NCBI GenBank assembly: GCA_903826405.1
Contig: CAIKEH010000053.1
Coordinates: 1-44,327, forward strand
DNA: 44,327 nt
Direction: 5' to 3'
Source of the DNA: an uncultured bacterium
Lineage (GTDB): Bacteria; Bacteroidota; Bacteroidia; Chitinophagales; Chitinophagaceae
Shown here: positions 36,945 through 44,327 of the stretch, one piece after another
Layout: each line of letters opens with the position of its first letter
Position numbering within the stretch: the stretch's first letter is position 1
Made by a program: the position numbers and the translations under genes
The notes under the pieces: generated by a model
What the model was told of the DNA's origin: nothing
Databases searched by the model: none
The model's input: only the letters and a program-made list of their open reading frames with translations

Positions 36945-37025
36945 ATTCTTCTTTTACAATGGATTGATGATCAGCCCGGCCGGACCGATCCAAACGCGAA
37001 TGAACAGGAAAATTACATAAAATGT

Positions 37026-37058
37026 TTTGGGAGATTTCCCCTCCAGCCAATATCTTTG
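37026..37058 (+). promoter_or_regulatory. Bacteroidota-type promoter of the methionine operon
   Basis: TTTG at 37026-37029 is the -33 element and TATCTTTG at 37051-37058 is an exact TAnnTTTG -7 element, 21 bases apart. Transcription should begin near 37064-37066, about 12 bases before the SAM-I aptamer. Confidence 0.75.
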
Positions 37059-37076
37059 CCACAGTTCTTGCACATG

Positions 37077-37191
37077 TTCTTATCCAGAAAGGCAGAGGGA
37101 AATGGCCCTGTGAAGCCTTGACAACCTGTCCGCCCCAGGCGAGATAAGGTGCCAACTCCAGCCCCGGTCAATGACTTGGGACAGATAAGTC
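37077..37191 (+). ncRNA. SAM-I (S-box) riboswitch aptamer
   Basis: The S-box core is complete and in order: CTTATC (37079-37084), GAGGGA, TGGCCC, TGAAGCC, AACC, AGGTGCCAACTCC, and closing GATAAG (37184-37189). CTTATC and GATAAG form helix P1. When SAM binds, P1 is held and the downstream terminator can form, so metY-metX-hom is turned off when SAM is plentiful. The fit is far beyond chance, and the gene behind it is a methionine gene. Confidence 0.95.
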
Positions 37192-37225
37192 AGATAAAAG
37201 GCTTTAGATACCACAACATCATATT

Positions 37226-37258
37226 AAGCCCATCTGACGATCCAGATGGGCTTTTTTG
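37226..37258 (+). terminator. Riboswitch-controlled intrinsic terminator
   Basis: A perfect 11-base stem (AAGCCCATCTG, 37226-37236; CAGATGGGCTT, 37243-37253) with a 6-base loop ends in a T-run. The rival antiterminator is also visible: GTCAGAT (37189-37195) pairs with ATCTGAC (37232-37238), GGCTT (37200-37204) with AAGCC (37226-37230), and GAT (37184-37186) with ATC (37240-37242). The last pairing and G37189 use the 3' strand of P1, so aptamer and antiterminator exclude each other. Confidence 0.9.
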
Positions 37259-37365
37259 TTGCCCCTACCTGATGGATAATGCATGTTCATGGATCTGAGA
37301 TCGATGCCTTAGCAAACTGACAAAAAAAATACACGGCCATGAGTACAGTATCCAAAATACCCTAC

Positions 37366-37373
37366 TATATTTG
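37366..37373 (+). promoter_or_regulatory. Possible second promoter element between riboswitch and leader peptide
   Basis: TATATTTG is an exact TAnnTTTG -7 element and would start RNA near 37380, 13 bases before the leader frame. No TTTG or TTG sits 17-25 bases upstream, so the -33 element is missing. If real, it would let the operon escape the riboswitch. Confidence 0.35.
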
Positions 37374-37392
37374 TAGAGTATTTAAAGTCAAC

Positions 37393-37464
37393 ATGAACAG
37401 CCTGAGATTATCCCCCATGCTTCTGTATTCCAGAATGATGAGTTCCTGTTGTTGTATGCCGTAA
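37393..37464 (+). CDS. Putative Cys/Met-rich leader peptide upstream of metY
   Basis: This is a 23-codon frame, ATG 37393 to TAA 37462-37464, reading MNSLRLSPMLLYSRMMSSCC followed by Cys-Met-Pro. Three TGT codons in a row are followed by ATG, and five of 23 residues are Met. It lies in the untranslated leader between the riboswitch terminator and metY, 105 bases before the metY start. Ribosome pausing at consecutive Cys or Met codons is the principle of amino-acid attenuators, and metY makes homocysteine (or cysteine) from sulfide. The stop codon lies inside a small hairpin, ATGCC-GTAA-GGCAT (37456-37469), with a GNRA-type loop. No match to a described leader peptide can be claimed from sequence alone. 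Confidence 0.5.
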   Translation: MNSLRLSPMLLYSRMMSSCCCMP

Positions 37465-37504
37465 GGCATTACCATTCCCATAATCCATACAGGGCCTTGT
37501 GCCA

Positions 37505-37523
37505 GTTTCCGTTGAACGGGAAC
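37505..37523 (+). other. Hairpin between the leader peptide and metY
   Basis: GTTTCCG (37505-37511) pairs with CGGGAAC (37517-37523), one G-T pair included, around a TTGAA loop. It has no T-run, so it is not a standard terminator. It lies 47 bases before the metY start and could modulate translation or pausing. Confidence 0.4.
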
Positions 37524-37536
37524 CTTCCATTATTGA

Positions 37537-38877
<1,341 letters not shown>

Positions 38878-38905: not shown

Positions 38906-39934
38906 ATGAAACCCAAACACCTTCGATTTGACTATAAAGAGGCATTCAGGTTAGAATCCGGGGCGGTGATCCCCGGATTCCACCTTGCCTATACCACCTC
39001 GGGGAACCTCAACCCAGAGGGGTCTAATGTGGTATGGGTTTTTCATGCACTTACTGCAAACAGCGACCCTTCGGAATGGTGGCCGGGTTTGGTTGGTGAA
39101 GGAACCTTCTTCGATCCCGAACGGTGGTTCATCATTTGCGTGAATATCCCCGGTAGCTGCTATGGCAGCATCGGGCCATTAGACACGGACCCGACCCGGG
39201 GAAAACCCTGGTACCACGATTTCCCTTTCTTCACGCCTCGGGACATGGTCAAAGCCTATCGTCTTCTGCGTGATGAACTCGGCATTGGTCATATATATAT
39301 AGGTATCGGGGGCAGCATGGGCGGTCAGCAACTGCTGGAATGGGCAATCGAAGAGCCCGATGCGTTCAAGAACATCTTCCCAATCGCTACAAATGCCGTT
39401 CATTCGCCCTGGGGCCGCGCCTTCAACGCCAGCCAGCGCATGGCGATAGAGAATGACCCTACATGGGCCGAGCAAACCCCCAAGGCAGGCATCAATGGAA
39501 TGAAAGTTGCCCGATCCATAGCCCTACTGAGCTACAGAAACTACGGCACCTATGGCGCCACTCAATTGGATACCACGGGCCAACTAGAGGATTACAAGAG
39601 CGAATCTTACCAGCGCTATCAAGGAGAGAAACTGGCCCGGCGCTTCAATGCATTCAGCTATCATGCCCTTTCCAAAGGAATGGATGCACATGATATCGGA
39701 AGGGGCAGGGGTAACTGTGCACTTGCTCTGAATGGTATCCGATCCAGAGCACTCGTGATCGGCATCAGCAGCGATATCCTTTTCCCCATAAGCGAACAGG
39801 AGTTCATCGCCAATCATATCCCGGGCGCCAAGGTCCATTTCATCCACTCCGATTATGGACATGATGGTTTTCTCCTTGAACATGAAAAAATAAGCTCGCT
39901 CATCAGTGAATTCCTCGCCCCCGACCATAACTGA
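38906..39934 (+). CDS. metX: Homoserine O-acetyltransferase
   Basis: This is an alpha/beta-hydrolase-fold enzyme of 342 residues that makes O-acetylhomoserine, the substrate of the upstream MetY. The nucleophile elbow is GIGGSMGGQQLLEW with Ser137. The acid is Asp in GISSDILFPISEQ and the base is His in DYGHDGFLLEHE. The family core also shows VWVFHALTANSDP, GSCYGSIGPLDTDP and FPIATNAVHSPWGRAFN. It is separated from metY by 28 bases and from hom by 24 bases. Acetyl and succinyl donors cannot be told apart with certainty, but pairing with MetY favours acetyl. Confidence 0.93.
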   Translation: MKPKHLRFDYKEAFRLESGAVIPGFHLAYTTSGNLNPEGSNVVWVFHALTANSDPSEWWPGLVGEGTFFDPERWFIICVNIPGSCYGSIGPLDTDPTRGKPWYHDFPFFTPRDMVKAYRLLRDELGIGHIYIGIGGSMGGQQLLEWAIEEPDAFKNIFPIATNAVHSPWGRAFNASQRMAIENDPTWAEQTPKAGINGMKVARSIALLSYRNYGTYGATQLDTTGQLEDYKSESYQRYQGEKLARRFNAFSYHALSKGMDAHDIGRGRGNCALALNGIRSRALVIGISSDILFPISEQEFIANHIPGAKVHFIHSDYGHDGFLLEHEKISSLISEFLAPDHN

Positions 39935-39958: not shown

Positions 39959-41224
39959 ATGCATGCCATGGATGCAAACAAACAACTCACGATCGGACTC
40001 TTCGGCTTCGGTGTGGTCGGACAAGGTCTTTACCGCATACTTCAGCAGACCCCTTCCCTGAATGCTTCCATCAAGCGCATCTGCATCAAGGATCCAGCCA
40101 AAAAACGAGATGCCCCGGATGCGCTATTCACTACCGACCGGGACCTGCTGCTGAATGATCCGGAGATCAATGTAATCGTTGAAGTGATCAACGAGTCCGA
40201 ACCTGCCTATCGTATCGTCACAACCGCATTGAGAAAAGGAAAGGATGTGGTGAGTGCCAGCAAGAAGATGCTTGCAGAGCACCTGCCAGAATTGATAACT
40301 CTCCAGCAGAGCAGCGGACGTTCATTGCTGTATGAGGCTTCTGCATGCGCCTCCATACCGGTCATCCGTAATTTGGAGGAATATTACGACAACGACCTGC
40401 TCCATTCGATCAAAGGAATCGTCAACGGATCCACTAATTTCATCTTGACAAAGATGTTCGAGGATAAACTCGACCTGAAGGATGCATTGCTGTTGGCACA
40501 GCAACTGGGATTCGCTGAAACCGATCCCACTCTGGACCTGGAGGGATATGACGCCGTGAACAAATGGACCCTGCTGCTCAACCATGCATACGGGATAACC
40601 ACAAGCCCCGGGGATATCGTCTTCAATGGCATCCAGAACATCAAGGAATCAGATGCCCGGGTAGCCAAGGAGAAAAACCTTCACATCAAACTCGTTGCTC
40701 AGGCTCAGAAACTCAAGGAGGGTGATGTGGCCGGTTTCGTGCTGCCGCAGTTCGTCAGGCAGGACGACCATCTGTCTTTCGTGAAGAATGAATACAATGG
40801 CGTGGTCATTGAAAGCGGATTCGCCGACAAGCAGTTCTTTTATGGAAAAGGCGCAGGCAGTTTCCCCACTGCCACGGCGGTGCTGAGTGATATCTCCGCT
40901 CTACGTTACCAATATAAATACGAGTACAAAAAACTTCACCACCACAAGCTCCTAAGGCTGTATGACGATTTTCATCTCAGGGCCTATGTCAGTTTTGCTG
41001 ATTGGACATTCATCCCCAGGGAGAAATTCGAATACATCGAAGAGTGGCATGCCCATGCAGACAGGAAGTACCTGGTTGGCATCCTGCATTTCCGTGAGAT
41101 CAAAGGCCACCGTTGGTGGAAGGACAACAACACATCACTTATACTGATGCCCGATCCCATTGTAGAAGACATGGATGTACGCAAGTTGAAGAAGGTGAGT
41201 CTGGAACTTGCTGGCATCATGTGA
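39959..41224 (+). CDS. hom: Homoserine dehydrogenase
   Basis: This NAD(P)H-dependent enzyme of 421 residues reduces aspartate semialdehyde to homoserine, the precursor used by MetX. The Rossmann motif is IGLFGFGVVGQGLYRIL. Catalytic marks are VSASKKMLAEHLPEL, LLYEASACASIPVIRNL and SIKGIVNGSTNFILTKM, followed by FAETDPTLDLEGYDAVNKWTLL with the catalytic Lys and Asp residues. No fused aspartokinase domain is seen, and the C-terminal region (from about 330) is not a clear ACT domain. ATG 39959 is used; another Met at 39968 is possible. The operon thus gives homoserine, O-acetylhomoserine and homocysteine under one SAM switch. Confidence 0.92.
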   Translation: MHAMDANKQLTIGLFGFGVVGQGLYRILQQTPSLNASIKRICIKDPAKKRDAPDALFTTDRDLLLNDPEINVIVEVINESEPAYRIVTTALRKGKDVVSASKKMLAEHLPELITLQQSSGRSLLYEASACASIPVIRNLEEYYDNDLLHSIKGIVNGSTNFILTKMFEDKLDLKDALLLAQQLGFAETDPTLDLEGYDAVNKWTLLLNHAYGITTSPGDIVFNGIQNIKESDARVAKEKNLHIKLVAQAQKLKEGDVAGFVLPQFVRQDDHLSFVKNEYNGVVIESGFADKQFFYGKGAGSFPTATAVLSDISALRYQYKYEYKKLHHHKLLRLYDDFHLRAYVSFADWTFIPREKFEYIEEWHAHADRKYLVGILHFREIKGHRWWKDNNTSLILMPDPIVEDMDVRKLKKVSLELAGIM

Positions 41225-42216: not shown

Positions 42217-44327
42217 ATGAAAAGTCTCAATCCGATGATGAATATCTGGAGAACGATAACCGGCAAGCTCAAAAAGCTTGCCCTCGGTCGTTCAGAGGAA
42301 GCCCCGATAGAGTTTGACATGCCGGTGGAGATGGGACGCGTGGTTTGGATGCGTGGCAGGCAAAGCCGGATGGAAGAGCCCATGGTCATCAATGGTCAGA
42401 AACGACACAAGCAAGTACCGCCCTATACGGTACTACCACGTGAAATGCACATTCAAAAAAATATTTCGACATCGCCGAAACATATCCGTTCCAAAGTAAG
42501 ATCCGCTTCCACACAAGGTAAAATTGCACTCATGAAAACTTGGCTCCGCAAATCTGGTCTGCTATCACTCACCATCATGGTCACGTCCCTTCTCATGACC
42601 GGGAATACCATGGGGCAGTCCACTCAGACTTTCACAAGCTCTTCTACTTGGGTTTGTCCGGTCGGTGTGACCAGTGTCACGGTAAAAGCATGGGGAGCAG
42701 GAGGCGGTGGCAGCACCATTACCAGCGCATCCACCCGTGGTGGTGGTGGTGGTGGTGGCGCATATGCCACGAAAGCCATAACTGTGACAGCCGGTACTAC
42801 CTACACGGTAACAGTAGGTACGGGCGGTGGCGCCAATACTGCCGGTGGCAATAGCTCCTTCAACTCCACATCGGTTGTAGCTGCAGGTGGCGGTGGTGGA
42901 ACAAGCAACACTGGTACAGCAGGAGCTGGAGGAACAACGGCAAGTTCAACGGGATCTACTACATACGCTGGTGGAGCAGGAGGTACTGCTCCAGTCTCCG
43001 GCAACTCCGGGGGTGGCGGCGGCGGTGCAGACTCTACCGGAGCCGGCAATGCCGCATCAGGAGCAACTGCAGGTGCTGCAAAAGGAAACACGGGTGGAGC
43101 TGGTGGCGCAAGTGCTGCCATTGGTACTAATGGCAACAGCGGAAGCACTTATGGCGGCGGCGGAAGTGGTGGCTACAGAAACGGTTCAAATACCGGCGGT
43201 ACTGGCGGTTCCGGAGCCAATGGCGCAGTCATCCTTACCTGGACCACTCCTACCTACACATCAACAGGAAACGGAAACTGGAATACCGCTGCAACTTGGG
43301 ATCTTGGATCCGTACCGGCAGCAGGCGCCAATGTGGTGATAGCAAATGGTCATACAGTCACTGTAAACATCGCAGCATCCGATCTGGTCAACCTGACCGT
43401 GAATGGCACGCTTGATGTGAGTACATATCAGGTTTCGGGAACAGGAACTTTATTGGTTCCCGGCACACTGAAAGTCGGCGGTACCTCCAACTTCCCCTCC
43501 GGCTTCAGCACTGTAACCTTAACCAGTGGTACGGTGAACTATTCCGCAACAGCTGGCGGGCAAAAAATCTATAGCACGACATATAATAACCTGACCTTAA
43601 GCAATACCAGTGGAACAGACTCTGCGCTAGGTGCAATCACTGTTAACTCCGGAACGCTTACTACAACCGCAAGTGGCACCTTGAACATGTCCACCTATGC
43701 CCTGAGTGGAACTGGCACATTCACCAATAACGGTACCATCAGCACTGCAAATACATCTTCCACTCCCTTACCCACGGGCAAGACCTGGGACGGAACCATC
43801 ATTTATGCCACTACCGCTGGCGGACAGACCGTCATGGCGGGCACATACAACAACCTGACCCTATCCAACACCTCCAATTCGAGCACGGCTAGTGGCGCCA
43901 TCACCGTCAACGGGACTTTGACCACCACGGCAGGTGGCACTTTTGCGCTCACTACTTACGGTTTGACCCTTGGAGGGTCTGCTTCCGTTACAAACAGTGG
44001 TACGATCAGCACAACAAATACTACAGCCACACCCCTAACCACGGGCAAGACATGGGGTGGAACCATAATTTACGCAGCAACCGGCGGTGGGCAGAAATTG
44101 GTTTCCGGCACTTTCAATAATTTAACCGTAAGCAACTCCAGCGGAATTGATTCTGCAACAGCCGACCTTACGGTAAATGGTACGCTGACCACAACTGCAA
44201 GTGGCACCTTGGATATGAGTAGTTACGCACTGAGTGGCACGACCACACCGACCAATGCGGGCACCATCAAAACAGCAAATACCAGTTCAGCGCCACTTCC
44301 CACCGGCAAAACTTGGGCCGGTACGGT
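42217..44327 (+). CDS. Large secreted glycine-rich repeat protein (3' end beyond the right edge)
   Basis: An open frame runs from ATG 42217 to the right edge (703 codons seen). A typical signal peptide begins only at the in-frame Met106 (ATG 42532: MKTWLRKSGLLSLTIMVTSL, cleavage about at TMG-QSTQT). Either translation starts at 42532 or there is a 105-residue hydrophilic N-terminal extension. Codon use in the extension looks coding, so I keep the longer frame. After the signal comes a glycine-rich domain (VTVKAWGAGGGG to GGSGANGAVILTW, including six GGT codons in a row at 42739-42756). Then comes NWNTAATWDLGSVPAAGANVVI, common at the start of Bacteroidota beta-helix surface proteins, and repeats of 87-89 residues. 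A type IX sorting tail is likely beyond the edge. Probable role: surface adhesion or matrix. Confidence 0.75.
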   Translation, partial: MKSLNPMMNIWRTITGKLKKLALGRSEEAPIEFDMPVEMGRVVWMRGRQSRMEEPMVINGQKRHKQVPPYTVLPREMHIQKNISTSPKHIRSKVRSASTQGKIALMKTWLRKSGLLSLTIMVTSLLMTGNTMGQSTQTFTSSSTWVCPVGVTSVTVKAWGAGGGGSTITSASTRGGGGGGGAYATKAITVTAGTTYTVTVGTGGGANTAGGNSSFNSTSVVAAGGGGGTSNTGTAGAGGTTASSTGSTTYAGGAGGTAPVSGNSGGGGGGADSTGAGNAASGATAGAAKGNTGGAGGASAAIGTNGNSGSTYGGGGSGGYRNGSNTGGTGGSGANGAVILTWTTPTYTSTGNGNWNTAATWDLGSVPAAGANVVIANGHTVTVNIAASDLVNLTVNGTLDVSTYQVSGTGTLLVPGTLKVGGTSNFPSGFSTVTLTSGTVNYSATAGGQKIYSTTYNNLTLSNTSGTDSALGAITVNSGTLTTTASGTLNMSTYALSGTGTFTNNGTISTANTSSTPLPTGKTWDGTIIYATTAGGQTVMAGTYNNLTLSNTSNSSTASGAITVNGTLTTTAGGTFALTTYGLTLGGSASVTNSGTISTTNTTATPLTTGKTWGGTIIYAATGGGQKLVSGTFNNLTVSNSSGIDSATADLTVNGTLTTTASGTLDMSSYALSGTTTPTNAGTIKTANTSSAPLPTGKTWAGT
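43516..44310 (+). repeat. Tandem 261-267-base coding repeats
   Basis: In the right-edge gene the marker Gly-Lys-Thr-Trp recurs with its Lys codon at 43780, 44047 and 44308, giving steps of 267 and 261 bases (89 and 87 residues). Each unit contains a (V/I)xYxATxGGQ strand, YNNLTLSN or FNNLTVSN, ITVNGTLTTTA and G(T)IxTANTS. Units keep frame. The first unit begins near 43516 and at least one more is cut by the right edge. Confidence 0.8.

Follow-up and report, generated by a model that had tools for sequence, protein, structure and literature searches.

The locus considered here centres on metY, which encodes an O-acetylhomoserine sulfhydrylase and is followed on the same strand by genes for a metX-like homoserine O-acetyltransferase and a homoserine dehydrogenase (hom), three genes that probably form one operon (Table 1). 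They lie within what we call the window, the whole 44,327-nucleotide stretch analysed (contig CAIKEH010000053.1, assembly GCA_903826405.1), from an uncultured member of the Chitinophagaceae with a genome of 3.59 Mb; its MetY groups with proteins mostly from that family. Upstream of metY, in 5' to 3' order, come a SAM-I riboswitch aptamer, an intrinsic terminator, a palindrome with a putative promoter, a small leader open reading frame (ORF) and two hairpins, H1 and H2. The riboswitch is firmly assigned, its covariance-model match exceeding the gathering score and a terminator, the sole terminator-like site between 36950 and 37600, following it. Elsewhere in the window, a repetitive stretch at 42540-43339 holds long overlapping open frames on both strands with Trp runs and Pro/Val/Ala-rich segments.

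Table 1. Coordinates of features at the metY locus of the window
Feature	Position	Strand	Evidence
SAM-I (S-box) riboswitch aptamer	37077..37191	+	Rfam RF00162, 72.8 bits against a gathering score of 44.4
Intrinsic terminator of the SAM-I riboswitch	37226..37258	+	11-pair stem 37226-37253, T run after
Palindromic box AAATAC.CTAC-TATATTT-GTAG.GTATTT; putative second promoter, possible operator	37355..37383	+	sequence
Bacteroidota -7-like element TATATTTG within the box	37366-37373	+	sequence
Leader peptide ORF MNSLRLSPMLLYSRMMSSCCCMP, then stop	37393..37464	+	sequence and comparative evidence
Control codons Cys-Cys-Cys-Met (TGT TGT TGT ATG)	37447..37458	+	Cys run kept in relatives, as TGT or TGC
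Hairpin H1, AUGCC-GUAA-GGCAU, stop codon in loop	37456..37469	+	conservation in the window and 19 relatives
Hairpin H2, GUUUCCG..CGGGAAC, no T run behind	37505..37523	+	sequence, folds, no terminator match
metY, O-acetylhomoserine sulfhydrylase, first gene after the leader	37570..38877	+	TIGR01326, 690.7 bits, above cut-off
metX-like homoserine O-acetyltransferase	38906..39934	+	TIGR01392 best match, 331 bits, below cut-off of 500
Homoserine dehydrogenase	39959..41224	+	NF004976, 310 bits, above cut-off

The leader ORF translates as M N S L R L S P M L L Y S R M M S S C C C M P stop and ends 105 nt 5' of metY, its last codons being three TGT (37447-37455), ATG (37456-37458), CCG (37459-37461) and TAA (37462-37464). 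An earlier sequence-only reading had described just such a frame, with 23 codons, a Cys-Cys-Cys-Met-Pro-stop ending and five Met residues including the start, placed between metY and a SAM-I riboswitch with its own terminator, with its stop in a GNRA-type loop and another hairpin some 40 nt further on; every one of these features is borne out, the loop being GUAA and the second hairpin H2. That reading did not see the palindrome that carries TATATTTG 20 nt 5' of the leader ATG. By the promoter consensus of the phylum, TATATTTG is a -7-like element, and the layout of the box resembles that of Rrf2-family operators. The proposal of two-level control is supported, in that a conserved Cys/Met leader does accompany a SAM-I riboswitch. 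It needs one correction here: in the window a second promoter-like element stands between them, so both sensors would share one RNA only in read-through transcripts.

Recurrence of the Cys-run frame upstream of metY

The sequence-only reading had looked to conservation for support, and short frames that open with ATG and carry a run of Cys codons, written as TGT or TGC, do recur 5' of metY in Chitinophagaceae, Cytophagales and Flavobacteriales-like genomes. Eighty MetY relatives were chosen from genome contigs on protein alone, and an ORF starting with ATG, 6-75 codons long and containing two or more CC pairs, was sought 25-380 nt 5' of metY. Such an ORF precedes metY in 42 of the 80 and is absent from 38. 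Among the 79 relatives scored with controls (the 80th, L080, has no such ORF), the same test returned 3 on the reverse strand and, over 20 dinucleotide shuffles, a mean of 0.1 and a maximum of 1, in comparisons that leave kinship among the loci uncorrected. A strict DNA pattern of the leader ending, TGYTGYATGCCNNAAGGCA, was found in 42 of 394 genomes and 20 of 101 genera of the family, with no match for the reversed control; at the 30 of these 42 sites that were fetched, the next gene is metY in 26 (the window included) and another gene in four. A 23-codon frame is in itself unremarkable, and readable same-genus relatives lack the leader, yet the shuffle and strand controls, the family-wide pattern matches and the sharing of the CCMP-hairpin ending with other genera contradict a chance frame, which we find scarcely credible. 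The conservation is of a kind that does not arise by chance.

Sixty-five leaders were collected: the 42 selected through metY, that of the window, and 22 selected by pattern, the last being hairpin-biased by construction. Their 376 Cys codons comprise 271 TGT and 105 TGC, and the last Cys is followed by Met-Pro in 37 of the 65. Leader length and the N-termini of the peptides vary; Cys/Met codons towards the end persist, and so does their position 5' of metY. Met makes up 30 of the 165 non-Cys residues within Cys runs, compared with 57 of the 1724 residues before the runs. Ile is commoner still, at no fewer than 40 of the 165 (a count for which the Ile background was not computed), which weakens the case for a specific role of Met. 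Two features expected of an attenuator leader are present: a short ORF with a codon run (Cys-Cys-Cys-Met) for amino acids tied to metY-metX-hom, and preservation of that frame and its control codons, synonymous substitutions included, in 42 of 80 relatives, although in none of 16 readable loci from the same genus. Recurrence of such tiny ORFs before metY in many Bacteroidia suggests that cysteine, and probably methionine, is sensed by the ribosome in addition to SAM being sensed by RNA.

The distribution of the leader is patchy at close range. Within the genus of the window, MetY was found in 19 other genomes of the 31 searched, and the leader is absent from all 16 metY loci with a placeable start; the start could not be placed in three more. 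Relatives without a Cys-run frame, which the sequence-only reading had reckoned would tell against a leader, are therefore what the genus presents, and not what the family or the class presents. In a tree of 108 MetY proteins, built by a quick method with no support measure but SH-aLRT, each of the two main clades includes proteins whose genes have leaders. The protein of the window is a lone branch close to its clade's base, at an open fork. An ancestral leader with repeated loss is the likely, and simplest, reading of these sequences; the leader may also have been gained in several lines.

One convincing case was found outside metY. At a locus of the same family as the window (L184 in genome G004), a SAM-I riboswitch with a terminator and a leader, MKKTTTFPSKTTVANAFKFAAACCCCQKFAACCCKC, containing CCCC and CCC, precedes a CysH-like reductase, named by eye; this is the same arrangement on a sulfate-assimilation gene. 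Cys leaders before cysH or cysD were sought through PF01507 in 30 relatives, and across the 21 of 30 loci examined a Cys-containing ORF appeared only in L213, a weak case. A survey across the phylum gave 89 SAM-I places in 60 of 70 genomes, among which credible Cys leaders were confined to L173, L184 and the window; L140 is weak, and the scattered-Cys ORFs of L134, L154, L192 and L193 were discounted.

Three arrangements of leader, riboswitch and terminator

The arrangement of the window, class A, belongs to the Chitinophagaceae and is defined by a SAM-I riboswitch with a terminator, a putative second promoter in a palindrome, and a leader ending in a near-invariant AUGCC-GNAA-GGCAU hairpin; 41 leaders represent it (20 metY-selected, 20 pattern-selected and that of the window). 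Of the 20 metY-selected loci, 15 have SAM-I no more than about 700 nt upstream of metY; it is absent in L010 and L015 and distant in L022, L024 and L054. It is found upstream in 14 of the 20 pattern-selected loci scanned. With up to six mismatches to a consensus derived from these class A sequences themselves, the palindromic promoter box is present in 26 of the 41 leaders and in none of 41 shuffled controls, and in 22 of the 26 loci with the box the leader ATG falls 8-20 nt 3' of the -7-like element. A sulfur regulon for the box was sought in the genome of the window, where, with up to two mismatches allowed, the window site and one further site with a single mismatch were found; as the reversed box pattern gave 4 + 4, no regulon is claimed. 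By eye, many of the same-genus loci (L284-L299) keep a near-palindrome such as GTCTAC-TAAATTT-GTAGAC around a -7-like element directly 5' of metY even though they have no leader.

Class A is arranged like the front half of a classical attenuator: its control codons fall at the 5' arm of H1, and the loop of this hairpin contains the stop. Across the window and 19 metY-selected relatives, the pairs of H1 are retained in 89% of cells and the sequence is near-invariant; with no compensatory change at any pair in this set, conservation of the hairpin cannot be distinguished from that of the codons. In leaders with a GCAA loop rather than GUAA, the frame continues, mostly as MPQGI(x). Pairing of the Cys codons with downstream RNA exceeds that of shuffled RNA over 18 class A leaders (combined z -4.4), four of which are significant singly, at rank 10 or better of 200. 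A relaxed test placed an intrinsic terminator 3' of the leader in 6 of 41 class A sequences (shuffles: mean 0.6, maximum 2), and a second test in 8 of 40, three of these being H1 itself, and in none of 20 class B sequences. The stretch 3' of H1 contains 28% C and 14% G, a composition that would suit Rho, though it is no test of Rho. A search of the window leader against Rfam up to E 10 gave, besides SAM-I, weak hits far below the family cut-offs.

Class B, mostly from Cytophagales, consists of 26 hand-chosen loci in which SAM-I lies shortly 5' of metY and has no terminator; 20 of them have a Cys-run ORF. Here riboswitch and leader abut. The first ATG stands 8-11 nt past the end of the SAM-I model in 21 of the 26 loci, and nearer or overlapping in the other five, and a predicted extended P1 helix stops 1-4 nt 5' of this ATG in 18. 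Native pairs of P1 flanks reach -128.4 kcal/mol, compared with -60.5 +/- 9.8 when flanks are swapped between loci, and none of 20,000 permutations was as low, in a test that does not remove relatedness. The proposed strict control by SAM-I and leader in series is clearer in class B, in which the riboswitch helix nearly abuts the leader ATG. The ATG is kept and the Cys run absent in the Algoriphagus and Belliella loci (L044, L048, L071, L072 and L080).

Cys-codon pairing downstream again exceeds that of shuffles (combined z -5.2) over 22 leaders, namely 20 of class B together with L062 and L075, and does so singly in six. At nine loci (L034, L040, L047, L049, L052, L059, L063, L068 and L077) a conserved RNA element, GCAACAMACTAGCGTACG, with a GUGAC-loop hairpin lies 3' of the leader. 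The sequence GCAACA, common to the nine behind the leader, is complementary to Cys codons, and 3 of the 15 predicted pairs in this region have changed on both sides. Rfam found only SAM-I above cut-off in the class B leader of L047, with weak hits far below the cut-offs up to E 10.

Class C comprises Flavobacteriales-like loci that lack an upstream SAM riboswitch and have a single Cys/Met-rich leader or a pair of them, every leader being followed by an intrinsic terminator. In an even sample of the Bacteroidia, a close MetY was present in 21 of 89 genomes, that of the window included. The 20 other genomes have 21 MetY loci between them; as judged by eye, 12 of these loci show a clear leader of the Cys or Cys/Met kind, one (L240) is weak and eight have none. 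Six of the 12 resemble class B, with SAM-I shortly 5' of the leader (L233, L236, L238, L241, L242 and L245); in L239, L243, L247 and L249, as in L075 from the first set, leaders are followed by intrinsic terminators; L232 and L234 are left unclassed. Another 29 loci came from a single family, that around L247. Met/Cys-rich ORFs are present in six (L257, L260, L270, L276, L281 and L282) and are accompanied by terminators in five of these; the ORFs of L259 and L279 were set aside, the start of L283 lay outside the match, and L263 has SAM-I and no leader.

No SAM riboswitch was found upstream of metY on its strand in the 11 class C loci. Some have switches elsewhere: SAM-I lies behind metY in L249, L260, L270 and L276, and SAM-II riboswitches occur within or close to the locus, on the other strand from metY, in L249, L257, L260 and L276, so that more than one class of SAM switch surrounds a single gene in some. 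Two leader-terminator units stand in tandem in 7 of the 11 loci (L075, L239, L243, L253, L257, L281 and L282), and the control residues of class C are shifted towards Met.

From the 11 loci, 18 leader-terminator units were picked by hand. Since in equilibrium folding the terminator wins in nearly all states, co-transcriptional windows were used instead. In all 18 units the 5' arm of the terminator is predicted to pair upstream more with the ribosome at whichever Cys/Met codon is best (mean 0.70) than with the ribosome at the stop (0.08), a contrast partly built in, as the 'stop' state leaves a shorter upstream sequence and the stall value is the best of several codons. Against 100 shuffles the predicted antiterminator pairing ranks sixth or better in nine units and not in the other nine.

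Proposed mechanism, alternatives and known systems

We think it quite probable that the frame is a genuine leader peptide that measures the supply of Cys-tRNA, and probably also of Met-tRNA, and adjusts metY-metX-hom accordingly. When cysteine is plentiful, a translating ribosome would pass the Cys codons and the leader RNA would fold into an off state made up of H1 and the RNA behind it; under a shortage of Cys-tRNA, the ribosome would stall in the TGT run, mask the 5' arm of H1 and so permit expression of the operon. Attenuation by Cys would in this way add to upstream sensing of SAM and to the second promoter in its operator-like palindrome. The sequence-only reading had likened the frame to an amino-acid attenuator; the codon run and its conservation uphold this, but H2 is not an intrinsic terminator, and the output step in the window is consequently not the textbook one. 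No intrinsic terminator lies behind the window leader (36950-37600), and pairing with the metY start is not general. Sensing of Cys, and perhaps Met, by stalling is likely; for the output step, termination that is Rho-dependent or at a weak hairpin is judged a little likelier than translational control of metY.

The latter is the most substantial alternative, and one that overlaps with the leader-peptide explanation: the Cys-codon region would pair with the metY start, and stalling would free that start. The minimum-energy fold of the window indeed pairs CUGUUGUUGUAUGC with GCAUACC...GACAACAUGAG at the metY start, but this fold is no more stable than shuffles (z -0.70) and, by eye, no comparable pairing occurs in the other class A folds listed, so that sequestration of the start was rejected as a general rule among them. 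A translational output is possible, if on the doubtful side. It is also conceivable that the ORF product is itself functional, either as a small protein rich in Cys or as a nascent chain that senses metal or redox state, and that the ORF is not a codon-based sensor of Cys-tRNA. Small Cys-rich proteins exist, and runs of 3-7 Cys could bind metal; the freedom of the length and N-terminus to vary while the Cys/Met codons near the end and the place before metY persist, and the class C shift to Met, which fits codons of the pathway product and not a metal site, make this improbable. A further candidate for the conserved element is the RNA hairpin AUGCC-GNAA-GGCAU itself, bound by protein or acting as a pause site, the ORF being incidental, and H1 is near-invariant and is kept in the MPQGI* leaders, where the stop has moved downstream. 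The Cys run upstream of the hairpin is nonetheless made of TGY codons in one frame with T/C variation, and class B and C leaders have Cys runs without this hairpin; we regard an incidental ORF as highly improbable.

Extending the leader-peptide explanation to the Bacteroidia, we give even odds to the proposal that metY is gated in layers, by a SAM-I riboswitch and by a ribosome reading Cys/Met codons, in forms specific to each class. In class B, the riboswitch would forgo a terminator of its own and its extended P1 helix would sequester the leader start; SAM would then decide whether the Cys/Met-tRNA sensor is read at all, in effect an AND gate for low SAM and low Cys. In the form of the window, the two sensors would be separated by an operator-bearing second promoter, and in the Flavobacteriales-like form a second leader-terminator unit would often take the place of the upstream riboswitch. 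If this is true, a riboswitch acting through the initiation codon of an attenuator leader would amount to an uncommon kind of RNA device with two inputs, and a class-wide family of Cys/Met leaders would give a codon-based view of the balance of cysteine, methionine and SAM.

Leader-peptide attenuation is little described in Bacteroidota. Short ORFs are reported in long 5' UTRs of Bacteroides thetaiotaomicron (PMC7366714), and leader-peptide attenuation before amino-acid operons of Flavobacterium psychrophilum, with no Cys or metY case named there (PMC9723704). A 2010 survey states that to its authors' knowledge no leader peptides had been shown outside Proteobacteria and Actinobacteria except ermC, and then adds a Firmicutes case (PMC2965389). 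Our literature search found no prior Cys leader in Bacteroidota; as it was limited to open-licence papers, this is weak evidence of novelty.

The closest relatives in kind are found in Actinobacteria. Canestrari et al. (2020) reportedly described poly-cysteine leaders in mycobacteria, in which a leaderless Cys-run ORF forms a cysteine-responsive attenuator. Cys leaders lacking conserved terminators precede actinobacterial cys and cbs operons (PMC1262725). The window and class A share with both a run of Cys codons close to the stop, a position 5' of a sulfur operon, the absence of a conserved intrinsic terminator and an ORF near the promoter, and differ in phylum, in the gene controlled (metY), in the pairing with SAM-I, in the CCMP hairpin and in the Met codons mixed in. 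With respect to the leaderless mycobacterial ORFs, the relevant figure is the 22 of 26 class A loci with the box whose ATG lies 8-20 nt past the -7-like element. In the Rhodobacterales, uORFC-8-2 before cysS places tandem Cys codons in a first stem and has been proposed to act by ribosome-mediated attenuation; unlike the metY leader, it has two Cys codons, an aminoacyl-tRNA synthetase gene, a 3' U run in all members and no riboswitch (PMC8632094). Membership of the window leader in uORFC-8-2 was rejected, its gene being metY rather than cysS and no terminator lying behind it.

The classical four-segment attenuators are those of trp, his and ilv. With these, class A shares control codons at segment 1 and a stop between segments 1 and 2, as seen at H1, and class C shares a terminator with a predicted antiterminator; the metY leaders differ in their Cys/Met specificity, in the lack of a clear terminator in the window and in the proposed riboswitch gating of class B. 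Pairing of SAM sensing with a second sensor also has precedents, for in Clostridium an S-box occurs with a Cys T-box. A SAM-I riboswitch of Xanthomonas also senses tRNA (PMC7270179). These systems have in common with the metY leaders a SAM signal and a tRNA-linked signal acting on one sulfur operon; the second sensor is an aptamer or a T-box in the Xanthomonas and Clostridium systems, and in the metY leader it would be a ribosome on an ORF.
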